From Myroides profundi (lineage in GTDB: Bacteria; Bacteroidota; Bacteroidia; Flavobacteriales; Flavobacteriaceae), in the NCBI RefSeq assembly GCF_000833025.1, contig NZ_CP010817.1:2294001-2358000 (forward strand): a DNA stretch of 64,000 bases, in the 5' to 3' direction. The notes under the pieces are model-generated. The model was given only the letters and a program-made list of their open reading frames with translations. It ran no database searches and was not told the DNA's origin. Made by a program: the position numbers and the translations under genes. Positions 3,036 to 61,859 of this stretch are shown in pieces. Numbering within the stretch: the stretch's first letter is position 1; each line of letters opens with the position of its first letter.

Positions 3036-3917
3036 TTAAACCGAAGCGTTCTTCCTAAACTGCTGAGGAGATATCCCTGTATTGCGTTTAAAATGTCTAC
3101 AGAATAGACTAGCATCATTAAAGTGGAGTTCATGACTTATTTCCTTAATAGACAGCTCAGTTGTTTTTAGCAATGACTTTGCATATAAGACTACCATATG
3201 ATCAATCCATTTTAGAACAGATTTACCCGTTTTTTGCTTGAGTAGAGTTGTGAGATACTGAGGAGTAAGGTGTAATTTATCAGCATAGAATCCTACCTCT
3301 CGATGCTTGATAGCATGCTCTGTAATCGATGTATAAAAACGATCTATGATATCGTGACTTCCCTCTTTCACAACAGGGTTCTTAACAGAAAGACTGGCAT
3401 AGGACTCTATTACCATATTAAACAAAGCTAAGATATGATAACGCAAGATCTCATTCTTTTTCACACTGTTCTCCTTATGGTAGAACTGTTGTAGATATGC
3501 TAGAAACTGACGCTCTAAGCTGTCTTCCTTCTCAAAGAACTTAATCTTAGGATTCCATCTGATTTGATCATCCGTTACGAATTCCCATAAACTAGGAATA
3601 GAGCTTATAAAGTCAAGGGACAACCCTATCGTGATCACCTCAGCATCATCGCTTTCTTCTACTACATCGATCATCAGATGAGGCAAAGCAATGATGACCT
3701 CCCCCGCTTTTACTTCATACTCTAGAAAGTGTACCTGCGCAGTCATCTTTCCCTTTAGCACAAAACCAAATAACAATCCCTCAAACTGATGCTTCTGATA
3801 AGCATAGTCCACTATAGGCAAATTGGTATGGTCTACGATAAACACTCCATCCCCTTTTAGAGAAGAATCAAGCTCGTGTAGTTCGTACAAATAATCTAAA
3901 GTCAGAAATAAAGACAT
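3036..3917 (-). CDS. AraC-family transcriptional regulator
   Basis: About 293 residues from the ATG at 3917 (MSLFLTLDYL). The open frame runs 32 codons further up, but that stretch is hydrophobic and unlike the family, so the inner start is preferred. The N-terminal half is a cupin-like sensor (GVFIVDHTNLP, then a strand-rich stretch ending EVIIALPHLMIDV). The last about 100 residues are the double helix-turn-helix AraC domain, with LHLTPQYLTTLLKQKTGKS in the first HTH and FNDASLFCRHFKRNTGISP in the second. It is divergent from the single-chain PheRS gene at 4102, with 184 bases between, and may control it; the shared region carries a 16-bp palindrome. The ligand is unknown. Confidence 0.8.
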   Translation of the reverse strand: MSLFLTLDYLYELHELDSSLKGDGVFIVDHTNLPIVDYAYQKHQFEGLLFGFVLKGKMTAQVHFLEYEVKAGEVIIALPHLMIDVVEESDDAEVITIGLSLDFISSIPSLWEFVTDDQIRWNPKIKFFEKEDSLERQFLAYLQQFYHKENSVKKNEILRYHILALFNMVIESYASLSVKNPVVKEGSHDIIDRFYTSITEHAIKHREVGFYADKLHLTPQYLTTLLKQKTGKSVLKWIDHMVVLYAKSLLKTTELSIKEISHELHFNDASLFCRHFKRNTGISPQQFRKNASV

Positions 3918-4015
3918 ATCTAAAATATAACAAAATGAATAATACCTATTCCTAAAAAGGATAAATAACATAATAAACATTAAAAATAGTACATAACATC
4001 CAATAAAACGCAAAA

Positions 4016-4031
4016 TCTAGAAGCTTCTAGA
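4016..4031. promoter_or_regulatory. 16-bp perfect palindrome, candidate operator
   Basis: TCTAGAAGCTTCTAGA is its own reverse complement. It ends four bases before the likely -7 box of the PheRS gene (4036-4043) and lies between the divergent AraC gene and the PheRS gene. A bound dimer here would cover the promoter spacer. AraC proteins usually bind direct repeats, so the binder could be another protein. Confidence 0.5.
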
Positions 4032-4035
4032 ATAA

Positions 4036-4043
4036 TACTTTTG
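4036..4043 (+). promoter_or_regulatory. Bacteroidetes-type -7 box (TACTTTTG) for the PheRS gene
   Basis: The sequence fits TAnnTTTG, the -7 consensus of the Bacteroidetes primary sigma factor. It lies 58 bases before the ATG at 4102. No clear -33 TTG is seen at the normal spacing, which would fit an activated promoter. Confidence 0.5.
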
Positions 4044-4101
4044 CACAAAGACTATCAACAGAAACAAAGTCTACTGGATTCAAAATTATAAATCAAAGAA
4101 T

Positions 4102-5136
4102 ATGAGTAATTTATCAAAGAGTATTAATGAAAAAAGAACGAGAAAGCTACACCTTAATCAGCTTCACCCTATTTGTCTATTAAAAGAGAAAATACAATCT
4201 TTTTTTTGCGACTTTACAACCTTTGATAATTTAGATGAAGTTGTAAGTACACAAGAGAATTTTGACAAACTATTAGTTCCTCTATATCATCCTGCCCGTT
4301 CTAAAAACGATACGTATTATGTGAATGATAACTTCGTTTTGCGCACGCAGACCTCAGCTCATCAAAATCAATTGTTGAGCCAAGGATATAAACAATTCAT
4401 TGTCACAGGAGATGTATATCGAAAAGATACGATTGATAAGACGCATTATCCTGTCTTTCACCAGATGGAGGTAGTTAAACTCTTGCCATTGGGATCAGAT
4501 GCACTACAAGATCTAAAGACAACTTTAGCTAAGTTAGTAGAGTTCTTATACCCTGGGAAAGAATATCGCTTTTTAGACGACCACTTCCCATTTACAGAAC
4601 CTTCTTTACAGATTGAAGTAAAGCAAGAGGAAGAATGGATGGAGATATTAGGTGCTGGTGTGATCCATACAGATATCCTAAAGCACAATGATATACAAGC
4701 CACAGGTTGGGCTTTTGGACTTGGGTTAGATAGACTTGTAATGTCTTTTTGTAACATACCTGATATCCGTTATTTTTGGACAGAAGATCCTCGCTTTATA
4801 TCACAGTTCAGAAATGGGCTTGCCACTTTTAAAGAGTACTCAAAATACCCTCCTGTATACAAGGATATTTCATTTTGGGTTCATCAGTACAAACCAAATA
4901 GAGAAGACAATTGGGAAGAGTACAATAATCTATGTGAAGTCATTAGAGAATATGGCAACGATCTAATCGAACGCGTAGAGCTCGTAGATCAATACAGCCA
5001 TGAAGCTAAAACTTCTCTTGCCTATCGCATTACTTACAGGTCTAATGAGAGAACATTGCTTAACGAGGAGATAAATGCTATAAACGACACCATCAGACTT
5101 CAATTATCACAACAATTTTATATCACCTTAAGGTAA
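4102..5136 (+). CDS. Single-chain, mitochondrial-type phenylalanyl-tRNA synthetase
   Basis: A 344-residue protein that joins a PheS-like catalytic domain (about residues 15-235) to a ferredoxin-fold anticodon-binding domain (FDX-ACB, about 248-344), the layout of monomeric mitochondrial PheRS (FARS2). Normal bacterial PheRS is an alpha2-beta2 enzyme with FDX-ACB on the beta chain. Class II signatures are complete: HPARSKNDTYYV and RTQTSAHQ (62-88), motif-2 region GDVYRKDTIDKTHYPVFHQME (103-123, shown in part), the Phe-pocket strand FPFTEPSLQIEV (162-173), and motif 3 GWAFGLGLDRL (202-212). The FDX-ACB part has YPPVYKDISFWV and YRITYRSNERTL. All expected residues are present, so activity is likely. 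It may be a second synthetase, for example for tolerance of a PheRS inhibitor or a Phe analogue; that role is inference. It has its own promoter and terminator and is divergent from an AraC regulator. Confidence 0.85.
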   Translation: MSNLSKSINEKRTRKLHLNQLHPICLLKEKIQSFFCDFTTFDNLDEVVSTQENFDKLLVPLYHPARSKNDTYYVNDNFVLRTQTSAHQNQLLSQGYKQFIVTGDVYRKDTIDKTHYPVFHQMEVVKLLPLGSDALQDLKTTLAKLVEFLYPGKEYRFLDDHFPFTEPSLQIEVKQEEEWMEILGAGVIHTDILKHNDIQATGWAFGLGLDRLVMSFCNIPDIRYFWTEDPRFISQFRNGLATFKEYSKYPPVYKDISFWVHQYKPNREDNWEEYNNLCEVIREYGNDLIERVELVDQYSHEAKTSLAYRITYRSNERTLLNEEINAINDTIRLQLSQQFYITLR

Positions 5137-5164
5137 GACGACAAACAACAAATTTAATTTCTGA

Positions 5165-5206
5165 AGCCCTGTCACCGATTATCACACTAACGGTGAAGTC
5201 AGGGCT
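5165..5206 (+). terminator. Terminator after the PheRS gene
   Basis: AGCCCTG (5165-5171) pairs with CAGGGCT (5200-5206) and TCACCG (5172-5177) with CGGTGA (5191-5196), followed by TTTTA. It lies 28 bases past the stop. Confidence 0.8.
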
Positions 5207-5297
5207 TTTATCGTATAAAATGTATTTCATACACGTCCATCTCCAATTTCAAATCCATGACAACGGTTATACATCCCTAAAATAATGAAGACAATTC

Positions 5298-8469: not shown

Positions 8470-9347
8470 GCTCAGCAGATAAAATAGAAAGGGCAAAGTA
8501 TCTGTTAGAGCAATATAAGTTATCCATCGTTCGTATTTGTTTATTAGTTGGGCTATGCCGATCAATGTGGTATTATCAAAGTAAAAAAGATGATACAGAG
8601 GTCATTGATAAACTAAGCGAATTAGCAGAACAATATCCTACTCGCGGCTTTGATGAGTACTATCATAAGATACGCAGAGAAGGACTTGTATGGAATAGAA
8701 AAAGAGTTCTACGTGTTTATCGCTTAATGAAACTAAGTCTAAGAAGAAAACATAAGAAACGTTTAATAACAAGAGTTAAACAGCCTTTAGAAACACCACA
8801 AGTACTCAATGAGTGTTGGAGTATGGACTTTATGAGTGACTTACTTACAGATGGAAGAAAAGTACGAGTTTTTAATGTATTAGACGACTGTAATAGAGAA
8901 GCAATAGCTATCGAAGCTGGATTAAGTTATCCTGCAAGGGCGGTAATAGAAACATTAGAAAACCTAAAACATGAAATAGGAAATCCAAAGTACATTAGAT
9001 GTGATAACGGTCCTGAATTTATCTCTAAAACCTTTGTAAACTGGTGTAAGAAGAACTTTATAGAGATAAAATATACTCAACCTGGTAAAACAATGCAGAA
9101 TGGATATATAGAACGTTTTAATCGATTTTTTAGAGAGGATATATTAGATGCTTTTTACTTCAATGATATTTACCAGTTACAAAGATTGGCTGATAAATGG
9201 AGAGAGGATTACAATTTTAACCATCCTCACAAAGCATTAGGGAATAAATCACCTAAAGAATATAAGCCCAGATTTGATGAAGAATTTAAATTCTTCATCA
9301 AATCTGAACATAATAAGAATTATTTGTCGAATTTAGAGGTGTCCTAA
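8463..9347 (+). CDS. IS3-family transposase OrfB (rve/DDE domain)
   Basis: Read by -1 frameshift from orfA at 8457-8463. After the shift the frame runs VLSSADKIERAKYLLEQYKL through to MWYYQSKKDD (the ATG at 8565) and on to the stop at 9347. It carries an HTH_21 region and an integrase core: D in CWSMDFMSD, D in IRCDNGPEF, and E in NGYIERFNRFFRED, the DDE triad, followed by the usual HPHKALGNKSPKEY. Complete, so the element is probably active. Confidence 0.9.
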   Translation, partial: VLSSADKIERAKYLLEQYKLSIVRICLLVGLCRSMWYYQSKKDDTEVIDKLSELAEQYPTRGFDEYYHKIRREGLVWNRKRVLRVYRLMKLSLRRKHKKRLITRVKQPLETPQVLNECWSMDFMSDLLTDGRKVRVFNVLDDCNREAIAIEAGLSYPARAVIETLENLKHEIGNPKYIRCDNGPEFISKTFVNWCKKNFIEIKYTQPGKTMQNGYIERFNRFFREDILDAFYFNDIYQLQRLADKWREDYNFNHPHKALGNKSPKEYKPRFDEEFKFFIKSEHNKNYLSNLEVS

Positions 9348-37469: not shown

Positions 37470-37742
37470 CAATGCAGAATGGATATATAGAACGTTTTAA
37501 TCGATTTTTTAGAGAGGATATATTAGATGCTTTTTACTTCAATGATATTTACCAGTTACAAAGATTGGCTGATAAATGGAGAGAGGATTACAATTTTAAC
37601 CATCCTCACAAAGCATTAGGGAATAAATCACCTAAAGAATATAAGCCCAGATTTGATGAAGAATTTAAATTCTTCATCAAATCTGAACATAATAAGAATT
37701 ATTTGTCGAATTTAGAGGTGTCCTAAAATGGGGAAGCCTACA
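37470..37742 (+). mobile_element. 3'-end fragment of the IS3-family element
   Basis: 273 bp identical to 9091-9363: the last 84 codons of orfB (37472-37726) plus the right terminal repeat. The 5' part is missing, so this is a dead fragment. The exact identity points to a recent event. It has the same orientation as the intact copy, and the two flank the Rhs array and the T6SS locus. Confidence 0.92.
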
Positions 37743-38151: not shown

Positions 38152-38772
38152 TTATTTAAAATCTTCAGAAGTATTCTGTAAGCTAGATTGAGTTTGATTA
38201 CCAACTGCTTCTATTTTTTCTGATACATTTTTACTTGTTTCTTGAACAGCATCTTTTGTATCACTTACTACATCAGAGATTTTATCTGATACCTTAGTAT
38301 CTTCATCTTTAGTATTATGAGATAACTCTTTAATTTCCTCTACAACATCTTCTACTAAACCTTTTGCTTTATCCCACATATTACCTAAAAAATCACTTGT
38401 TCTCTCCTTAGCTTCTTGAGCTGTTTCTTTCATAGAATCTACTGCCCCTTCTACTTTATCTTGAGCATTGCTAGCTGTCTCTTTCATAGAATCTACTGCC
38501 CCTTCTACTTTATCTTGAGCATTGCTAGCTGTCTCTTTCATAGAATCTACTGCCCCTTCTACTTTATCTTGAGCATTGCTAGCTGTCTCTTTCATAGAAT
38601 CTACTGCCCCTTCTACTTTATCTTGAGCATTGCTAGCTGTTTCTTTCATAGAATCTACTGCCCCTTCTACTTTATCTTGAGCATTGTTTACTGTTTCTTT
38701 CATAGAATCTATTGCCCCTTCTACTTTATCTTGAGCATTGTTTACTGTTTTTTTTAATTGATCTTCATTCAT
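38152..38772 (-). CDS. LEA/apolipoprotein-like repeat protein
   Basis: 206 residues, no signal peptide, very rich in Lys, Glu, Asp, Ala. Six tandem copies of an 18-residue unit of the form NAQDKVEGAVDSMKETAS occupy residues about 10-120, followed by KERTSDFLGNMWDKAKGLVE and a second helical region with SDKISDVVSDTKDAVQETSK. An 18-residue period equals five helical turns, so each unit would lay one hydrophobic face on the same side, as in amphipathic helices that bind membranes or protect proteins during drying (LEA group 3 and apolipoprotein-like proteins). A stress-protection role is inferred. It is monocistronic. Confidence 0.7.
   Translation of the reverse strand: MNEDQLKKTVNNAQDKVEGAIDSMKETVNNAQDKVEGAVDSMKETASNAQDKVEGAVDSMKETASNAQDKVEGAVDSMKETASNAQDKVEGAVDSMKETASNAQDKVEGAVDSMKETAQEAKERTSDFLGNMWDKAKGLVEDVVEEIKELSHNTKDEDTKVSDKISDVVSDTKDAVQETSKNVSEKIEAVGNQTQSSLQNTSEDFK
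38420..38760 (-). repeat. Six tandem 54-bp repeats inside the LEA-like gene
   Basis: The unit has a spacing of exactly 54 bases (for example C-runs at 38445 and 38499). The four middle copies are almost identical in DNA; the two at the N-terminal end of the gene differ slightly. In-frame gain or loss of units is likely. Confidence 0.9.
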
Positions 38773-45537: not shown

Positions 45538-48036
45538 TTACTTCTGAAATAATTGAAAAGAGATATCCTTTACACTAAAAGTTAATAATTTCACATCACC
45601 CTTAGCAAAGTTCCCATCTTGATCCCCTCCATTTTTTTTAAAAGTTGAAGACTCTACTGCTACTCGTATTTCTAAATTATTATTAGTTTCCAAAAGCATT
45701 AGATGGTCTATATTGATACTCTTTGAATATTTTGAAAGGATAGGGTCACCGCCTCCTATTGGCAAGATTAGATAATCATTATAAGATGCTATCAATTGAC
45801 TATTTAGATAAGTAGATACTACTATTTTGACAGTTGAATGTTGTCTAACAGTAAAATCATTGATTGTTTCAAAATTCGTTTTTACTATACTTGAGAGTTG
45901 AATATATCTCTTTTCTGTTTTGTTTACATCTGATTTAAAATTAAGTGTATAAACAGGGTTATTGAAAGAAACAGATGATTGAGGAATATAACGCCATTCT
46001 CCTTCGTTTTGAATATTTTGTCCCACTATCTGATTATATGTATAAGATCTATCAGACGCAGCAGTACTTGTATATTCTGCCATATCAACTAGAGCATAAC
46101 CATCATTCAGTTTAAAACTAACACCTTGTTCATCAATTACATTACCATCAGAGTCTATCGCTTTTTCATTAAAATAAGTAAACGTTCCATCTTTATTATC
46201 TATTAATTTGGTAACTGTCTCATTGGCCTTAACTAGTTTATCTAGGTCGATTGTCTGATCATTGCCATCTTTATCTTTGTAAACTAAGTCTTTACCGTTG
46301 TAGATTACATTACCCTCTACATCTTTTAATACTTCCTTAATTACTTTTTCTACTGTCTCGGGGTTGTTCTTTACAATAGTCTCAAAATTCTGAACTACCG
46401 AAGCTGGGATGTCAATCTTAGTCTCTGCCCCATCCTCTGACTTATAGGTATAGGTACCATCAGCCCCAGCCAATAGCGTAGTTACTGTCTCATTGGCTTT
46501 AACTAGTTTATCTAGGTCGATTGTCTGATCATTGCCATCTTCATCTTTGTAAACTAAGTCTTTACCGTTGTAGATTACATTACCCTCTACATCTTTTAAT
46601 ACTTCCTTAATTACTTTTTCTACTGTCTCGGGGTTGTTCTTTACAATAGTCTCAAAATTCTGAACTACCGAAGCTGGGATGTCAATCTTAGTCTCTGCCC
46701 CATCCTCTGACTTATAGGTATAGGTACCATCAGCCCCAGCCAATAGCGTAGTTACTGTCTCATTGGCTTTAACTAGTTTATCTAGGTCGATTGTCTGATC
46801 ATTGCCATCTTCATCTTTGTAAACTAAGTCTTTACCGTTGTAGATTACATTACCCTCTACATCTTTTAATACTTCCTTAATTACTTTTTCTACTGTCTCG
46901 GGGTTGTTCTTTACAATAGTCTCAAAATTCTGAACTACCGAAGCTGGGATGTCAATCTTAGTCTCTGCCCCATCCTCTGACTTATAGGTATAGGTACCAT
47001 CAGCCCCAGCCAATAGCGTAGTTACTGTCTCATTGGCTTTAACTAGTTTATCTAGGTCGATTGTCTGATCATTGCCATCTTTATCTTTGTAAACTAAGTC
47101 TTTACCGTTGTAGATTACATTACCCTCTACATCTTTTAATACTTCCTTAATTACTTTTTCTACTGTCTCAGGGTTGTTCTTTACAATAGTCTCGAAGTTC
47201 TGAACTACCGAAGCTGGGATGTCAATCTTAGTCTCTGTCCCATCCTCTGACTTATAGGTATAGGTACCATCAGCCCCAGCCAATAGCGTAGTTACTGTCT
47301 CATTGGCCTTAACTAGTTTATCTAGGTCGATTGTCTGATCATTGCCATCTTTATCTTTGTAAACTAAGTCTTTACCGTTGTAGATTACATTACCCTCTAC
47401 ATCTTTAGCTACTTTCTCGATAATCTCTTTTACTTTCTCGGGGTTGTTGTTTACAATTGTCTCAAAGTTATTGGCAACAGATGCTGGGATGTCAATAACT
47501 GTCTCTGTTCCATTCTCTGATTTATAAGTATATGTACCGTTGTCTGATGCAACTAGCGTAGTTAGTGTCTCATTTGCCTTAACTATTGATGAAAAAATTA
47601 ATTCCTTCCTAGCTCCTGAACGATCTAAATACTCAAATTTACTTCCATCATAAAAAACATTCCCTCCTGTTTTTTTTATAATGTTTTGAACTGTCTCATT
47701 TTTGACAATTTCTTCAAAATTATTTATTACAATATCTTTGACTTCTGAATCCGATGCCAATTTAACCCACTTTGTTTTATTCCAATAATAAAACCCTGGT
47801 TCAATATCTCCTTGCTTTTTATTAGCATAGACTAATAAGCTCTCAACATTCCCATTTGAAATAGTTGAAGAATCATTAGTAGCTTTTAAAGAGACACTTG
47901 GTATTAATAATCCTTTGTCATTAGAGCTAATAGTTAATTCGGCTGACTTATTCGGAACTTTGGTTCCAATACCAACTTGAGCTTTTACTGACAGCATAAA
48001 TAAAAATGCTGCCACACACAGTAACTTTTTTTTCAT
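45538..48036 (-). CDS. Long exported repeat protein, putative surface adhesin or fibre
   Basis: 832 residues. Signal peptide (LLCVAAFLFMLSVKA), then QVGIGTKVPNKSAELTISSN and GLLIPSVSLKATN, a start common among flavobacterial surface proteins, with GFYYWNKTKWVKL. Residues about 110-640 are tandem units of about 90 residues containing VIYNGKDLVYKDKDGND, LVKANETVTTLLAGADGTYT and IDIPASVVQNFETIVKNNPE; one diverged copy is followed by five nearly identical ones. A unique C-terminal beta-rich domain follows (from about 640). There is no type-B sorting domain, so the export route after the Sec pathway is not clear. It is the first gene of the minus-strand surface cluster. Confidence 0.75.
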   Translation of the reverse strand: MKKKLLCVAAFLFMLSVKAQVGIGTKVPNKSAELTISSNDKGLLIPSVSLKATNDSSTISNGNVESLLVYANKKQGDIEPGFYYWNKTKWVKLASDSEVKDIVINNFEEIVKNETVQNIIKKTGGNVFYDGSKFEYLDRSGARKELIFSSIVKANETLTTLVASDNGTYTYKSENGTETVIDIPASVANNFETIVNNNPEKVKEIIEKVAKDVEGNVIYNGKDLVYKDKDGNDQTIDLDKLVKANETVTTLLAGADGTYTYKSEDGTETKIDIPASVVQNFETIVKNNPETVEKVIKEVLKDVEGNVIYNGKDLVYKDKDGNDQTIDLDKLVKANETVTTLLAGADGTYTYKSEDGAETKIDIPASVVQNFETIVKNNPETVEKVIKEVLKDVEGNVIYNGKDLVYKDEDGNDQTIDLDKLVKANETVTTLLAGADGTYTYKSEDGAETKIDIPASVVQNFETIVKNNPETVEKVIKEVLKDVEGNVIYNGKDLVYKDEDGNDQTIDLDKLVKANETVTTLLAGADGTYTYKSEDGAETKIDIPASVVQNFETIVKNNPETVEKVIKEVLKDVEGNVIYNGKDLVYKDKDGNDQTIDLDKLVKANETVTKLIDNKDGTFTYFNEKAIDSDGNVIDEQGVSFKLNDGYALVDMAEYTSTAASDRSYTYNQIVGQNIQNEGEWRYIPQSSVSFNNPVYTLNFKSDVNKTEKRYIQLSSIVKTNFETINDFTVRQHSTVKIVVSTYLNSQLIASYNDYLILPIGGGDPILSKYSKSINIDHLMLLETNNNLEIRVAVESSTFKKNGGDQDGNFAKGDVKLLTFSVKDISFQLFQK
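46200..47410 (-). repeat. Tandem 270-bp repeats inside the long exported protein
   Basis: The marker TTGTCTGATC recurs with its last base at 46260, 46530, 46800, 47070 and 47340, an exact 270-bp period (90 codons). The central copies differ by only a few bases (for example KDKDG/KDEDG, TETK/AETK). A more diverged unit lies at about 47410-47640. Confidence 0.95.
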
Positions 48037-54772: not shown

Positions 54773-57700
54773 ATGCTTAATAAAATCATTAAGTACTTCT
54801 TACACAATAGAGTAATTACTCTATTACTACTAGTAGTAGTTATTGTATGGGGACTAATAACAGCTCCATTTAACTGGCACCAAAATATGTTGCCAAGCGA
54901 TCCTGTACCAGTAGATGCTATCCCTGACATTGGTGAAAACCAACAGATCGTAGCAACAGAGTGGATGGGGCGCTCTCCTAAAGATATTCAGGAGCAAATC
55001 ACTTATCCACTAACGACTTCTCTACTGGGAATCCCTGGTGTAAAAACAGTGCGTAGTAGCTCTATGTTTGGGATGTCGTTTATCTATATCATTTTTGAAG
55101 AAAATGTAGAATTCTACTGGAGCCGCTCGCGTATCTTAGAGAAACTAAACTCTCTACCAGCAGGAACATTACCTGAGGGAGTAATCCCTTCATTAGGACC
55201 AGATGCTACTGCACTTGGGCAAGTATACTGGTACACGCTAGAAGGGCGTAATCCTGAGACAGGAGAACCTACAGGTGGATGGGATCCGGACGAGCTACGT
55301 ACAGTACAAGATTTCTATACTAAATATAACTTATCTGCTGCAGAAGGAGTGTCTGAGGTAGCTTCTATCGGAGGATATGTAAAAGAGTATCAAGTAGAAG
55401 TAAATCCTGATGCAATGCGCGCTTATAACGTATCTGTGATGGATGTGATGTCTGCGATTCAGAAAAGTAACCTTGATATCGGAGCAGAGACCATCGAAAT
55501 TAATAAAGCAGAGTACTTAGTACGCGGTCTTGGATACATTAAAAATGTCAAGGATCTAGAGGATGCTGTAGTCACAGTACGAAACAATGTTCCTGTAAAA
55601 ATTAAAGACATAGCCTTCGTTAACTTAGGGCCAGCTACACGTCGTGGTGGTCTAGATAAAGAAGGTATTGAAGCTGTAGGAGGTGTTGTAGTAGCTCGTT
55701 ATGGAGCTAACCCTATGCATGTGATTAGTAACGTAAAAGCTAAAATAAAAGAGATGGAAGCTGGGCTTCCTCAAAAAACACTTGCTGATGGTACCATATC
55801 TAAAGTAACCGTAGTTCCTTTCTATGACCGATCAGGATTAATACAAGAAACAATAGGTACACTAGAAACAGCCTTAGCACACGAGATATTAATCTGTATC
55901 ATCGTAGTTATTGTACTTGTTATAAACTTGCGCGCGTCAGTGATTATCTCTAGTATTCTACCCATAGGTGTACTAGCGACTTTCATCATTATGAAATATA
56001 TGGGAATAGAAGCCAATATCGTTGCCCTATCGGGTATTGCTATTGCTATTGGAGTTATGGTGGATGTTGGCGTCGTCTTTGTCGAGAGTATCATCAGGTA
56101 CATGGAAGAAGAAAAAGCCCAAGGAATACAAAGTAAGGGAATGGCTTTTGTCAACCTTATTACAAAAGCGGTATCAGAAGTATCAGGTGCCTTGTCAACA
56201 GCTATGCTAACCACCATTATCAGCTTCTTACCTGTATTTGCAATGGAAGCGCAAGAAGGAAAGCTATTTAAACCATTAGCTTACACCAAGACCTTCGCTC
56301 TATTATCGGCATTTATCTTAGGGATCATCGTACTTCCTACAATAGCGTACTATGTATACTCTATTAAAATAGACAAACAAAAACTGCGCAAAATAGCCAA
56401 TTATATCTTAGCTGTAGTAGGTATAGGACTGTGGATATATACAGGCGAGTTTATCGCTGTGACGCTAACATTAGTGGCTATTAATAATCTGTTTACACCA
56501 GGCTGGAAAACAGATACAATAGCCAATTATATCAATGTAGTCCTTACCCTATTTGTGGCTTTATACTACCTTACAGTAGAATGGTTACCTCTGGGTACTC
56601 AAGAGAGTACAGGATTAAACTTTGTCTTTGTACTTTTAGCTATCGGATCTATATTAGGTGTATTGTGGTTATTAGTAATCTACTATGAACAAATCTTAAG
56701 ATGGGCACTTACCCACCGCTGGAAGTTCATGAGTATTCCTATTCTAACATTAGTCTTCGGAATGCTAGTATGGTTAGGTGCAGACAAAAGCTTTGGTTTT
56801 CTAGCCAAAGGCTTTGAGACTGTTGGATGGAAATCATTTAGAGAAACTGCTTTTTGGCAAAAATCAACACAGACCTTCCCAGGTATTGGACAGGAGTTTA
56901 TGCCTAGTCTTAACGAAGGATCATTCTTACTGATGCCAACAAGTATGCCTCATACAGGTATTGAACAGAACCTTCAGTTTATCGGTACACTAGACAGACG
57001 TATTTCCAATATTCCTGAAGTAGAATTAACAGTAGGTAAATGGGGACGTGTAAACTCTGCTCTAGACCCTGCTCCTACTCAGATGTTTGAGAACACGATC
57101 AACTATAGATCAGAATACATCCTAGATGACAATGGACATAGACAGCGATTTAAAGTGAATAAAAAAGGAGAGTTTGAACTTATCAATGGAACTACCTATA
57201 ATGTAGAAGATGGTTTTAGACTTATCCCTAGAGATAGTTTAATTATAGACAAAGATGGTAAGTTCTTGCGTCAATGGCGTCCTGAGATTAAAAAGGCAGA
57301 TGATATCTGGCAAGAAATTGTCAATGTATCTCACTTACCTGGACTAACCTCGGCTCCTAAACTTCAGCCTATCGAGGCAAGACTTGTGATGCTATCAACA
57401 GGTATGCGTGCGCCAATGGGATTAAAAGTATCTGGACCAGATCTAGAATCTATAGAAGCAGGTGGAAAAGCATTAGAGACTGCGCTTAAAGACATCCCTT
57501 CTATTATGCCTTCTACTGTATTCTATGATCGCGCGGTAGGTGCTCCTTATGTAGAGATTCACCTAAACAGACATAATATGGCTAGATACGGAATTACAGT
57601 ATCTGACTTGCAAGATGTAATCGGTGCTGCTATCGGAGGAATGGCCCTAACCACTACTGTAGAAGGACGTGAGCGATTCCCGGTAAGATTGCGTTATCCT

Positions 57701-58588
57701 CGAGAACTAAGAGATAACCCAGAACAGCTAGCAAAAATGCTAATCCCTACCGCTACAGGAGCTCAAATTCCTTTAAGCGAGGTAGCGGATATAGAATATG
57801 CTAAAGGTTCACAGATGATTCAAAGTGAGAATACCTTCTTACTTGGTTATGTCATCTTTGATAAAATAGAAACAAAAGCAGAAGTAGATGTAGTACACGA
57901 GGCAGATAAGCTATTACAAGCTAAGCTAGCCTCTGGTGAACTTACCCTACCAAAAGGAGTAACCTATAAGTTCGCTGGTAATTATGAACAACAAGAAAGA
58001 GCTTCTCAGCGATTACTATACATTGTACCACTGAGTTTATTAGCGATTCTTTTGATTCTATACTTCCAGTTTAAAACGATTGCAGCATCGCTTATCCACT
58101 TCTCTGGAGTGTTCGTAGCTTTTGCAGGAGGTTTTATCTTATTGTGGTTATACGGACAGCCTTGGTTTATGAACTTCTCAGTCGGAGATATGAATATGAG
58201 AGACTTATTCCAAATGCACAATATCAACCTGAGTATAGCAGTCTGGGTAGGTTTTATCGCCTTATTCGGATTAGCTACCAATGATGGAGTACTAATGGGA
58301 ACTTATATACATGATACCTTTAAGGCTAGAGATCCTAAGACTAAAGAGGAGATTCGAGAAGCGGTAGTATACGCAGGATTAAAACGTGTAAGACCTGCAG
58401 CGATGACTACTGCTACAGCTCTAATTGCACTTCTTCCTGTGATGACCTCTACGGGTAAAGGAGCAGAGATTATGGTCCCCATGGCTATCCCTACATTCGG
58501 AGGAATGTTAATACAGTCCATGACCATGTTTGTAGTACCAGTATTCCAATGTTGGTGGAGAGAATGGGCAATTAAGCGTTCCGCTTAA
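54773..58588 (+). CDS. cusA: HME-RND heavy-metal efflux pump, CusA/CzcA-type
   Basis: 1271 residues. It starts with the first helix (VITLLLLVVVIVWGLITAPF), then DPVPVDAIPDIGENQQIVAT and TEWMGRSPKDIQEQITYPLT, the HME signature. RND helices 2-6 include VALSGIAIAIGVMVDVGVVF with the proton-relay Asp, and the second set ends LIALLPVMTSTGKGAEIMVP. Met residues in the porter domain (APMGLKVSGPD; SLNEGSFLLMPTSMPHTGIE) fit a Cu(I)/Ag(I) path. It is over 200 residues longer than E. coli CusA because of extra hydrophobic helices inserted around residues 540-640, common in Bacteroidetes homologues. Works with the TolC-like and membrane-fusion proteins encoded next. Substrate (Cu/Ag) is inferred from Met content and neighbours. 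Confidence 0.9.
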   Translation: MLNKIIKYFLHNRVITLLLLVVVIVWGLITAPFNWHQNMLPSDPVPVDAIPDIGENQQIVATEWMGRSPKDIQEQITYPLTTSLLGIPGVKTVRSSSMFGMSFIYIIFEENVEFYWSRSRILEKLNSLPAGTLPEGVIPSLGPDATALGQVYWYTLEGRNPETGEPTGGWDPDELRTVQDFYTKYNLSAAEGVSEVASIGGYVKEYQVEVNPDAMRAYNVSVMDVMSAIQKSNLDIGAETIEINKAEYLVRGLGYIKNVKDLEDAVVTVRNNVPVKIKDIAFVNLGPATRRGGLDKEGIEAVGGVVVARYGANPMHVISNVKAKIKEMEAGLPQKTLADGTISKVTVVPFYDRSGLIQETIGTLETALAHEILICIIVVIVLVINLRASVIISSILPIGVLATFIIMKYMGIEANIVALSGIAIAIGVMVDVGVVFVESIIRYMEEEKAQGIQSKGMAFVNLITKAVSEVSGALSTAMLTTIISFLPVFAMEAQEGKLFKPLAYTKTFALLSAFILGIIVLPTIAYYVYSIKIDKQKLRKIANYILAVVGIGLWIYTGEFIAVTLTLVAINNLFTPGWKTDTIANYINVVLTLFVALYYLTVEWLPLGTQESTGLNFVFVLLAIGSILGVLWLLVIYYEQILRWALTHRWKFMSIPILTLVFGMLVWLGADKSFGFLAKGFETVGWKSFRETAFWQKSTQTFPGIGQEFMPSLNEGSFLLMPTSMPHTGIEQNLQFIGTLDRRISNIPEVELTVGKWGRVNSALDPAPTQMFENTINYRSEYILDDNGHRQRFKVNKKGEFELINGTTYNVEDGFRLIPRDSLIIDKDGKFLRQWRPEIKKADDIWQEIVNVSHLPGLTSAPKLQPIEARLVMLSTGMRAPMGLKVSGPDLESIEAGGKALETALKDIPSIMPSTVFYDRAVGAPYVEIHLNRHNMARYGITVSDLQDVIGAAIGGMALTTTVEGRERFPVRLRYPRELRDNPEQLAKMLIPTATGAQIPLSEVADIEYAKGSQMIQSENTFLLGYVIFDKIETKAEVDVVHEADKLLQAKLASGELTLPKGVTYKFAGNYEQQERASQRLLYIVPLSLLAILLILYFQFKTIAASLIHFSGVFVAFAGGFILLWLYGQPWFMNFSVGDMNMRDLFQMHNINLSIAVWVGFIALFGLATNDGVLMGTYIHDTFKARDPKTKEEIREAVVYAGLKRVRPAAMTTATALIALLPVMTSTGKGAEIMVPMAIPTFGGMLIQSMTMFVVPVFQCWWREWAIKRSA

Positions 58589-58802
58589 TTAATTACGAAT
58601 TAAGAATGATTGCCCTACGGGCATTATATACACACTGTCGGCACACAATACACTAAGGTAGAGACGCATTATTATGCGTGTCACATTCAGGGGATAACTC
58701 GCTGCGGAAAGTCTCCCGACTTTGCGCAACTTAAACGAAGTATGATGGTGTGGATTTCCAATCCGTGACGACATAAACTGTGAACCGTAAACTAATAAAA
58801 CA
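58589..58802. other. Intergenic region with REP-like palindrome
   Basis: ATTGCCCTACGGGCAT at 58609-58624 holds an inverted repeat (TGCCC-TAC-GGGCA) and recurs as its reverse complement at 61964-61979. GACGCATTATTATGCGTGTC at 58662-58681 is a second hairpin. Between pump and channel genes these may tune transcript stability. Confidence 0.5.
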
Positions 58803-60281
58803 ATGAACAAAAATAAAACGTATATATATTTAGCTTCGGCCTTCTTAGCAGTGACTAGCTTCACTGCTACGGCTGTAGCGCAGCAGCAACCTAAAGACTC
58901 TCTATCAAGCTATCTCAATGTAGCCATAGAGAATAACCCAGGGATCAAAGCACAGAAATTTGCTCATGAAGCTTTTTTACAAAAGATTCCACAAGCAGGT
59001 GCTTTTCAGGATCCTGAACTATCTATGGACTTCTACACAAAGCCTATGGATATTGTAGGTGGGCGCTCTATTGGCAATGTAAGTATCATGCAGATGCTTC
59101 CTTGGTTTGGTACGCGTAAGACTGCCCGCATAGAAGCTGGTCATATGGCTAATATGCAAAACGAGCAGTACAAAGAAGTGGTTGATAATATTACTTTACA
59201 AGTACATACCCAATGGTATGCCATGCAGAAGCTAAACGAGCAGTTAAGAAATAATGAAGAGAACAGAAAACTCTTACAACAATTAGAACAATTAGCTCTT
59301 AGAAAGTTCTCAGCACCATCTAATAGTGCTAAGGTTACCGCTACTCCTAAAGTAAGTAGTAAGACTGCCTCTACTACATCTGCTTCTGCATCAGCAGGTA
59401 TGGGATCAATGAATATGGGTGGTGGAACTACTGCTAGTAGCACACCAGCGATGTCTTCTTCCATGGGATCTGGCGGAGGTATGAGCGAATTGGGCGGCAG
59501 TAGCGCTTCAGGAATGTCTGATGTATTGCGTATTGGATTAGAGCTTATAGAGATAGAGAATAATATTGAAAGCTTACACTCTCAATTAAAAGCAGAGAAA
59601 GCAAAATTCAATGCTCTTTTAAACAGAGAGGCAAACCATGAAGTAGTCTTAGGTGAAATAGAGAAAATACCTTTTATATATGGAGAGCAAGATGCTCTTC
59701 TAGCCATAGAGGCTAATAACCCTATGCTTTCAATGATCACAGAAGAAGGTCTTGCCTATAAAGCGAAAGCAGAAATGGACAAGAAAATGAGCTACCCTAT
59801 GATAGGACTTGGACTGCAGTATATGGTTATCGGAAAGACTAATGATAAAATGCTGGCTATGGGAGATATGAATGGAAAGGATATGATTATGCCAATGGTC
59901 ACTGTGAGTCTTCCTATCTTCCGCAAAAAGTATAAAGCCCAACAAGAAGAAGGTAAACTATGGTGGAAGTCTAGTGATCAGAAGTTCGAAGACACTTATA
60001 ATACTTTAAAAAGTGAGTATTATGGATACAAAAGTCAATTAGATGATGCTGAACGAATTGTCACCTTGTATGAGAAGCAGACTACATTAGCTGAGACGAC
60101 TTACAACCTTATTATCAAAGAATTTGTAACAGGTAAAAGTGATTTAACCAATGTAATACAAGTACAACGTCAATTATTAGATTACCAATTAAAAAAAGCA
60201 GAAGCAATTGCTAACTACAATACCATGGTAGCTTCTATCAAGAAATTATTAGCAATACGTGACAACACACAAAATATTTAG
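58803..60281 (+). CDS. TolC-family outer-membrane channel of the metal efflux system
   Basis: 492 residues. Signal peptide (LASAFLAVTSFTATAVA), then the TolC start YLNVAIENNPGIKAQKFAHE, DPELSMDFYTKPMD and MQMLPWFGTRKTARI. The two long-helix halves are seen at about 105-170 and 240-330, and again after 400 (QLDDAERIVTLYEKQTTLAE; KEFVTGKSDLTNVIQVQRQL). Between helices of the first half is an unusual low-complexity insert at about 170-238, rich in Ser, Thr, Ala, Gly and Met (GMGSMNMGGG; SSSMGSGGGMSELGG), facing the periplasm or channel mouth and able to bind soft metals. It is encoded 3 bases before the membrane-fusion gene. Confidence 0.85.
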   Translation: MNKNKTYIYLASAFLAVTSFTATAVAQQQPKDSLSSYLNVAIENNPGIKAQKFAHEAFLQKIPQAGAFQDPELSMDFYTKPMDIVGGRSIGNVSIMQMLPWFGTRKTARIEAGHMANMQNEQYKEVVDNITLQVHTQWYAMQKLNEQLRNNEENRKLLQQLEQLALRKFSAPSNSAKVTATPKVSSKTASTTSASASAGMGSMNMGGGTTASSTPAMSSSMGSGGGMSELGGSSASGMSDVLRIGLELIEIENNIESLHSQLKAEKAKFNALLNREANHEVVLGEIEKIPFIYGEQDALLAIEANNPMLSMITEEGLAYKAKAEMDKKMSYPMIGLGLQYMVIGKTNDKMLAMGDMNGKDMIMPMVTVSLPIFRKKYKAQQEEGKLWWKSSDQKFEDTYNTLKSEYYGYKSQLDDAERIVTLYEKQTTLAETTYNLIIKEFVTGKSDLTNVIQVQRQLLDYQLKKAEAIANYNTMVASIKKLLAIRDNTQNI

Positions 60282-60284
60282 GCA

Positions 60285-61859
60285 ATGGACAAAATAAGAA
60301 ATATATTCAAAAACAATATTGTGCGTTATAGTGCAATATTACTTGTAGGTTTATTATTAGGATGGATGGTCTTTGGTGGAGCAGGATCACATCAGCACAA
60401 TGGAGAACCAGCTACTACAGAAGAGGGAAATACAGTATGGACTTGTTCTATGCACCCACAAATCAAAATGGATAAACCAGGGAAATGTCCTTTATGTGCT
60501 ATGGACTTAATTCCGCTTAAATCTTCTGATGGTGGTGATAACGCAATAGATGATGAGGCAATCCAGATGTCTAAAGAAGCAGTAGCACTAGCTAATATAC
60601 AAACTACTGTGGTAGGACATCAAGATGCAGTAAAAGACATTCAACTCTATGGAACCATACAAGTAGATGAGCGATTACAACAATCTCAAACTTCACATGT
60701 CAATGGTCGTATTGAGAAGTTGTATGTTAACTTTACAGGAGAAGCTGTAAGACAAGGACAACTAATCGCTACTATCTATTCTCCTGATCTACTAACCGCT
60801 CAACAAGAGTTATTAGAAGCAGCTAAGTTAAAAGACTTACAGCCATTATTATTAGACGCTGCTAAAGAGAAATTGCGCATTTGGAAGATGTCAGAAGCTC
60901 AAATAAGCAAAGTCTTGAGCACAGGGAATGTTTCTCCTTATGTATCTATACATGCGAATACAAGTGGTATTGTCGTGGCAAAAAATGTTAACCAAGGTGA
61001 TTATATCAGTCAAGGAACTGTGCTTTATAATATTTCTAATTTATCTAAACTGTGGGCTGTATTTGATGCCTATGAGAATGACCTTCCATTTATCAAAGAA
61101 GGAGATGTATTAAAATATACATTGCAGAGTTTACCAGGAGAAGTATTTAAAGGAAAGATTGCTTTTATCAATCCTATTATAGACGCTACTTCTAGAACAG
61201 CAAAAGTAAGAGTAGAAACAGACAATAGAAATAATAACCTTAAACCTGAGATGTACGCGAGTGCAAAAATATCAGCTCCTCTTAAACAGTACAATAAAGA
61301 AATGGTCATTCCTAAATCTTCTGTACTATGGACAGGTAAACGCTCTGTAATCTATGTAAAACAACCCAATACAGCTACTCCTGCCTTTAAGCTAAGAGAA
61401 ATCGTATTAGGACCTTCACTTGGAGAGAATTATGTAGTGATGTCAGGATTAGAAAATGGAGAAGAAATCGTAACTAATGGAGTATTTACAGTTGATGCTA
61501 GCGCGCAGTTAGAGGGGAAACGCAGTATGATGAACAACGATAATGCTCCTGCTGCTAAAGGACATGCTAATCACGGAACTACGGCAAGTGCTAATCTAGA
61601 ACATGCTATGCTTAAAGTAAAAGGAAACTGTGATTTATGTAAAGAGAGAATAGAAACCGCTGCGAAGAAAGTAAAAGGGGTATCTACTGCTTCTTGGGAT
61701 GTAAAGGAAAAGGTACTACACCTTAACTTTGATAAAAAACTAACCTCTAAAGCAGCTATATCTAAGGCTGTAGCCAAGGTAGGACACGATACAGAACTAG
61801 ACAAAGCTACAGATGCAGATTATAAAGCCTTACACAGCTGTTGTCAATTCGAAAGGTAG
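60285..61859 (+). CDS. cusB: CusB-type membrane-fusion protein with metal-binding N-domain and C-terminal HMA domain
   Basis: 524 residues. N-terminal anchor (YSAILLVGLLLGWMVFG), then a heavy-metal-binding domain at 51-80 (WTCSMHPQIKMDKPGKCPLC, AMDLIPL). The adaptor body follows (IQLYGTIQVDERLQQSQTSH; IYSPDLLTAQQELLEAAKLK; VSIHANTSGIVVAKNVNQGD; LWAVFDAYENDLPFIKEGD) to about 410. Residues 440-505 form a heavy-metal-associated domain (HAMLKVKGNCDLCKERIETA, with CxxC at 449-452), and the chain ends HSCCQFER. E. coli CusB lacks the HMA part; there a separate CusF delivers Cu(I). Here the chaperone function may be built in. Forms the bridge between RND pump and channel. Confidence 0.87.
   Translation: MDKIRNIFKNNIVRYSAILLVGLLLGWMVFGGAGSHQHNGEPATTEEGNTVWTCSMHPQIKMDKPGKCPLCAMDLIPLKSSDGGDNAIDDEAIQMSKEAVALANIQTTVVGHQDAVKDIQLYGTIQVDERLQQSQTSHVNGRIEKLYVNFTGEAVRQGQLIATIYSPDLLTAQQELLEAAKLKDLQPLLLDAAKEKLRIWKMSEAQISKVLSTGNVSPYVSIHANTSGIVVAKNVNQGDYISQGTVLYNISNLSKLWAVFDAYENDLPFIKEGDVLKYTLQSLPGEVFKGKIAFINPIIDATSRTAKVRVETDNRNNNLKPEMYASAKISAPLKQYNKEMVIPKSSVLWTGKRSVIYVKQPNTATPAFKLREIVLGPSLGENYVVMSGLENGEEIVTNGVFTVDASAQLEGKRSMMNNDNAPAAKGHANHGTTASANLEHAMLKVKGNCDLCKERIETAAKKVKGVSTASWDVKEKVLHLNFDKKLTSKAAISKAVAKVGHDTELDKATDADYKALHSCCQFER

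Follow-up and report, generated by a model that had tools for sequence, protein, structure and literature searches.

Introduction

In Escherichia coli, a Phe-rich leader peptide (pheM) forms an attenuator upstream of pheS and pheT, the genes for phenylalanyl-tRNA synthetase (PheRS). The Bacillus genes thrZ and tyrZ code for inducible second synthetases, which are controlled by a T-box. Here we describe srmL, a gene for a single-chain PheRS of the mitochondrial type, which is located in a stretch of 64,000 nucleotides of contig NZ_CP010817.1 (positions 2,294,001 to 2,358,000, hereafter the window). We regard srmL as a probable reserve PheRS, for which survival of PheRS inhibition would be the likeliest selected benefit and which appears to be tied to tRNA charging by a leader in most of its relatives in Bacteroidota.

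The heterotetrameric PheRS is described as conserved in all known prokaryotes (PMC3275996). Among the papers listed in a search of the open-access literature, which leaves out most subscription papers and all preprints, there was no report of a one-chain PheRS of bacteria or phages, of SrmL or of the leader.

Domain architecture and active site

The srmL gene (4102..5136, forward strand) encodes 344 amino acids. Based on the list of open reading frames (ORFs) and on domain and family profiles, its product, named SrmL by NCBI, is a single-chain, mitochondrial-type PheRS. The class II PheRS catalytic domain PF01409 covers residues 14-236 (4141..4809, 182.7 bits) and the anticodon-binding domain FDX-ACB, PF03147, covers residues 247-344 (4840..5133, 70.5 bits). 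With 303.4 bits, the protein also exceeds the cut-off of the model TIGR00469 pheS_mito (258.35 bits). An earlier note, made from the sequence alone, had recognised the FARS2 layout, i.e. a PheS-like catalytic domain and an FDX-ACB domain in one chain of 344 residues, and the three profiles agree with it. In the predicted structure, the FARS2 fold spans the whole chain.

The note had also described motif 2, the Phe pocket and motif 3 as intact, which was confirmed by residue comparison with FARS2. In the alignment, the motif 2 region GDVYRKDTIDKTHYPVFHQME is found at residues 103-123 (4408..4470), the pocket motif FPFT, identical in FARS2 and in the organism's own PheS, at residues 162-165 (4585..4596) and the motif 3 core GLGLDR, including its Arg, at residues 206-211 (4717..4734), all on the forward strand. 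At 27 of 31 catalytic and pocket positions, a set selected partly from background knowledge, the residue of human mitochondrial PheRS is matched; the differing positions are T82/A, I182/V, A185/C and I188/M. The active site is kept across the 32 aligned relatives. No editing domain (B3/B4) is present in the window protein. It is probably a working, editing-free, one-chain PheRS that would aminoacylate tRNA.

Tolerance to a toxic Phe analogue, one of the roles proposed in the note, is weakened by a pocket that is nearly that of FARS2 and by the absence of an editing domain. The human mitochondrial enzyme is described as lacking editing and as able to keep Tyr on tRNA-Phe (PMC3275996), and PMC7916415 includes ochratoxin A among the Phe analogues that act on PheRS.

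Occurrence and horizontal transfer

Ordinary pheS and pheT genes are encoded elsewhere in the genome of the window, in line with the proposal of the note that srmL is a spare synthetase and not the sole PheRS. The pheT gene was found in 12 of 12 relative genomes tested. The gene is rare and not a core gene in the samples searched: when the SrmL model was compared with 395 genomes of the phylum, 383 gave a match due to PheS, and the cut-off was passed by the genome of the window alone. Likewise, protein searches of 150 genomes of the genus (E 1e-90) and of 60 relatives (E 1e-60) returned only the own genome. A wider scan of contigs yielded 16 further loci, which belong to Myroides, Elizabethkingia, Chryseobacterium, Sphingobacterium, Pedobacter and two further lineages of metagenome-assembled genomes; S. 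tabacisoli carries two copies (L006, L013).

Since the PheT of the window genome is 84% identical to that of both Myroides genomes, its host is Myroides-like. Window srmL is 63-71% identical to the copies of other families, where PheT identity is 47-51%. Between Chryseobacterium jejuense CC143 and Pedobacter caeni, identity is 94% for srmL and 48% for PheT; between two genomes of C. jejuense, it is 74% for srmL and 99% for PheT, and between the two Myroides genomes 82% and 97%, respectively. These identity values indicate that srmL moves horizontally between bacterial families.

No DNA match to positions 3036-5136 was found on plasmids. The plasmid protein search gave 56 records; at least two of them, from Glutamicibacter and Azotobacter, cover at least 80% of the query among the 30 of 56 records listed. 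Among the annotated phages of INPHARED, 15 records were obtained with identities of about 29-37%, none of which covers 80% of the query.

Phe-codon leaders of the relatives

At all 14 non-Myroides loci (13 genomes), a short ORF within 260 bp before srmL, for example M-N-S-R-I-N-I-L-F-S-F-F-F-F-G-P-P-G-P-R-stop, contains 3-8 consecutive Phe codons, and in 11 of the 14 leaders the run comprises at least four codons. The background is formed by 295 other upstream regions in the same 17 stretches (script-called ORFs of at least 80 amino acids, with the first start codon as gene start), among which one run of three and no longer run was observed. No run of more than two Phe codons was found upstream of 13 pheT genes (that of the own genome and those of 12 relatives), the own pheS or 28 viral genes. 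The codons of the leaders differ synonymously between relatives.

In 12 aligned leaders, the last part of the leader ORF lies within a hairpin (GGCCC/GGGCC), which is followed by two more hairpins; both-sided changes were observed in 5 of 22 pairs. Loci L018 and L019 have a different sequence at the place of the first hairpin, which by eye could pair as well. A scan of 12 genomes with the leader pattern gave 14 matches. Ten of these, with 0-1 mismatches, are all located upstream of srmL and four have three mismatches; a reversed control pattern gave nine matches, thus matches with three mismatches are at chance level. Two of the four (L084, L095) adjoin no recognised Phe gene, and L094 and L097 lay outside this check. 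No Rfam match at gathering level was obtained for the leader in the seven loci searched; a single match below threshold, located in the stretch of the window, is taken as chance.

The layout is that of a sensor of Phe charging, and the response itself is putative. In the relatives, a shortage of Phe-tRNA-Phe, caused by inhibition of the housekeeping PheRS or by scarcity of Phe, would leave tRNA uncharged and stall ribosomes in the Phe-codon leader. Stalling beside the hairpin may then act through a switch further downstream, so that the spare PheRS is made.

Genomic neighbourhood and probable selected benefit

Neighbouring genes were compared at 13 of the 16 loci (L009, L018, L019 and the window were left out), with 133 of 279 ORFs in 20 stretches located elsewhere in these genomes as controls. 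GNAT acetyltransferases (PF00583) account for 18 of 133 neighbour ORFs and at most 2 of 133 control ORFs (Fisher p 2e-4), where 'at most 2', the value used in the test, reflects that GNAT is outside the 25 commonest families of the background. AraC proteins account for 16 of 133 and 3 of 133, respectively (p 3e-3); both p values ignore that neighbours are common to several loci, hence the counts are not independent. The Pedobacter loci additionally encode a hexapeptide transferase, a YbaK-type aminoacyl-tRNA deacylase domain, a deaminase and two S66 peptidases, one of them in two pieces. The S66 family includes the microcin C immunity protein MccF.

Because srmL moves between families and is often found among acetyltransferase and AraC genes in the relatives, we consider survival of PheRS inhibition its likeliest benefit. 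The earlier note had suggested tolerance to a PheRS inhibitor, and this part of its proposal gains indirect support from the Phe leaders, the horizontal transfer and the acetyltransferase-rich surroundings of the relatives. The same leaders, together with the nearly unchanged pocket, would also suit a back-up for starvation, in which the spare raises charging capacity or affinity under Phe scarcity without an inhibitor. The rare and patchy occurrence of srmL (only the own genome in the samples of 395 and 150) and the GNAT-rich surroundings of the relatives argue against such a back-up, and horizontal movement is more readily reconciled with accessory resistance than with a general response to starvation. 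We therefore regard a starvation back-up as possible but rather unlikely.

Several observations weigh against a reserve PheRS selected by inhibition. The window and the two Myroides loci have no Phe leader (the longest Phe run before the window copy is 0), so that control by charging is suggested for the relatives only, and in L010 the ATG of the leader is lost, although a frame started by TTG reaches the Phe run. Among the three hairpins of the leaders, neither a U-tract terminator nor a pair of terminator and antiterminator was recognised. As stated above, the neighbour counts are not independent of each other, and no array rich in acetyltransferase or AraC genes is present at the window locus. 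The copy of Sphingobacterium yanglingense (L015) is interrupted in frame by a stop after codon 283 (codon 284), with intact copies in its relatives. Finally, the inhibitor itself is presumed. If a reserve PheRS selected by inhibition is nevertheless the correct reading, srmL would confer natural resistance to inhibitors of PheRS, a target class of antibiotic development, and natural PheRS inhibitors would be at work in these habitats.

Relation to the NCBI family SrmL

The window protein passes the cut-off of NF051887, 'PheS-related mystery ligase SrmL' (331 vs 300 bits), and NCBI already applies this name to some of the relatives, which the earlier note had missed. In the view of the NCBI label, the protein would be a ligase outside translation, which attaches Phe or a different acid to tRNA or to some other acceptor for biosynthesis. 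The high scorers of NF051887 are plasmid proteins of Glutamicibacter and Azotobacter (524 and 515 bits), in which FPF is replaced by HPY and E by D and a Gln is lost. Unlike these two, the window protein keeps FPFT, FHQxE and TSAHQ. It also passes TIGR00469. In the tree, the two high scorers share a very long separate branch (6.73) of uncertain position, and they are excluded from the Bacteroidota clade with 86/73. The note had alternatively proposed that srmL serves a tRNA-dependent pathway; this found no support, as the neighbours examined, whose family list covered the 25 commonest of 136, included no recognised pathway partner. Taken together, a ligase outside translation appears improbable. 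Judged against the two NF051887 proteins compared, a PheRS-like enzyme is more probable for the Bacteroidota clade than a member of the group that NF051887 was made for, and a likely true PheRS is thereby set apart from the 'mystery ligase' label.

An ORF of 23-24 amino acids with R-F-S-x-P precedes both high-scoring NF051887 genes (L130:8684-8836, L131:8656-8841). In L131, a strong hairpin and a T-run are located just before the start, and the 3' arm could by eye pair with the leader ORF. These elements are possible attenuators. The Glutamicibacter copy adjoins a Cmx-type chloramphenicol efflux gene, with tet(33) about 8 kb away.

Huge phages and phylogeny

The family extends to viruses, which the earlier note had not noticed: 30 loci of IMG/VR (L023-L052) encode a one-chain PheRS with 38-54% identity, and many of their contigs resemble those of huge phages. 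Among the 16 of 30 viral contigs tested, ten have a match to the terminase PF03237 (seven over the cut-off), eight to the Gp23 capsid and 12 to at least one of these; neither was found in L025, L027, L036 and L048. In 14 control genomes, the terminase model gave six matches and the capsid model none. Genes for GluRS and CysRS are present in the flanks of the viral loci. The pocket of viral L036 is altered, with TSAHQ lost and E changed to D.

A first tree was calculated with 27 of the 30 viral rows (L030, L041 and L049 left out) and 23 of 120 listed proteins. For the later tree, 17 rows of the first set, mostly near-duplicates but also the long row L048, were dropped and 21 added. In both PheS-rooted trees, a long branch (100/100) lies between the one-chain PheRS and PheS, and the Bacteroidota form a clade (100/100), for which support decreased to 86/73 once the two plasmid proteins were added. 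The eukaryotic sequences listed for a phage query, human FARS2 and three metagenome proteins form a clade (100/98), which groups with two metagenome proteins, phage L035 and the viral contig L027 (97/91, PheS-rooted) inside a mostly viral and metagenomic family. The contig of L035 (322 kb) has terminase and Gp23 capsid matches and that of L027 (91 kb) neither. With human as the sole eukaryote, its placement with L035 is weak (84/40). In the AU test, neither the grouping of all non-eukaryotic one-chain rows (p 0.178) nor the same grouping without the L035/L027 group (p 0.125) was rejected; in both tests P0130, P0141 and P0157 were counted as eukaryotic by tree place and length, not by name. Therefore, transfer in the reverse direction, from eukaryote to phage, is possible as well.

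A possible, although less probable, reading is that the one-chain PheRS is a mobile family of huge T4-like phages and of Bacteroidota, where it would be an inducible spare, and that eukaryotes may have obtained their mitochondrial PheRS from a phage lineage. If true, a phage origin would explain the replacement of the alpha2-beta2 enzyme in mitochondria. Phage-like mitochondrial polymerases, described in PMC4558845, are a precedent. Now that the one-chain form is seen in huge phages, the origin of the mitochondrial enzyme can be tested directly.

As the family is common to huge phages and one relative copy is broken (L015), srmL could also be a relic of a phage PheRS with no present role. The preserved active sites, the conservation of the leader with synonymous changes and the retention of the divergent regulator in Myroides speak against a relic, which we consider very improbable.

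Regulation and surroundings of the window gene

An AraC-family regulator gene (3036..3917, reverse strand; ORF list, profile and alignment) is divergent from srmL, as the note had stated. Its start is likely at 3917, and the listed ORF extends to a TTG at 4013. The arrangement is kept in both Myroides relatives (L004, L017), whose regulators are 61 and 64% identical to that of the window. AraC proteins of the same kind are also found away from srmL in the flanks of L012 (51%) and L011 (44%), so the pairing is not exclusive. Window srmL is probably under AraC control; in this Myroides-type lineage, the regulator and the signal it may sense would take the place of the leader.

The -7 consensus of Bacteroidota is TAnnTTTG. 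It is fitted by TACTTTTG (4036..4043, forward strand), which is matched in the alignment by similar boxes of both Myroides relatives and had been correctly placed beside a palindrome by the note. The perfect 16-bp palindrome TCTAGAAGCTTCTAGA is indeed present (4016..4031), and a Markov model of the intergenic region produced such a palindrome in 0.4% of 3000 trials; it was found in the window only. No 16-bp palindrome was detected within 300 bp upstream of srmL at the 16 other loci, including L004 and L017 with their divergent AraC genes, and the window contains eight perfect 16-bp palindromes, compared to 0-3 in ten simulations. A role as conserved operator is thus not supported. Another perfect 16-bp palindrome, AAGAATTTAAATTCTT, occurs twice (9280-9295 and 37659-37674).

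Folding revealed a strong hairpin followed by UUUU downstream of srmL (about 5163..5208, forward strand, z -5.96), which supports the terminator proposed in the note; an automatic terminator scan returned nothing at 5163-5208. A gene for a transporter of the MFS type ends 2.3 kb before srmL and an NmrA-like gene follows it. Further away, the translations of a large cluster (12199-35889) include a Rhs-repeat protein; the cluster resembles a type VI secretion system of Bacteroidota (ClpV-like, VgrG-like, Hcp-like). Proteins with long, near-identical internal repeats are encoded at 45538-48036 and 38152-38772, and positions 54773-61859 presumably represent a heavy-metal RND efflux cluster (CusA/CzcA-like pump, outer-membrane factor, adaptor).

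Comparison with known systems

With the bacterial alpha2-beta2 PheRS, the window enzyme shares a core homologous to PheS and an FDX-ACB domain homologous to the C-terminus of PheT, but it is a single chain without the B3/B4 domain. Compared to human FARS2, it starts where the mature protein aligns and lacks some of the extra residues. In contrast to the mitochondrial PheRS, srmL is an accessory bacterial gene with a divergent regulator, present beside pheS and pheT. The relatives resemble E. coli pheM-pheST in having a Phe-rich leader peptide 5' of a PheRS gene; however, their leader precedes the spare only, its ORF ends inside a hairpin and an intrinsic terminator was not recognised. As in the case of Bacillus thrZ and tyrZ, a spare is found beside a housekeeping synthetase and the relatives show signs of control by tRNA charging, but a Phe-codon leader peptide replaces the T-box and the spare enzyme is of another structural type.
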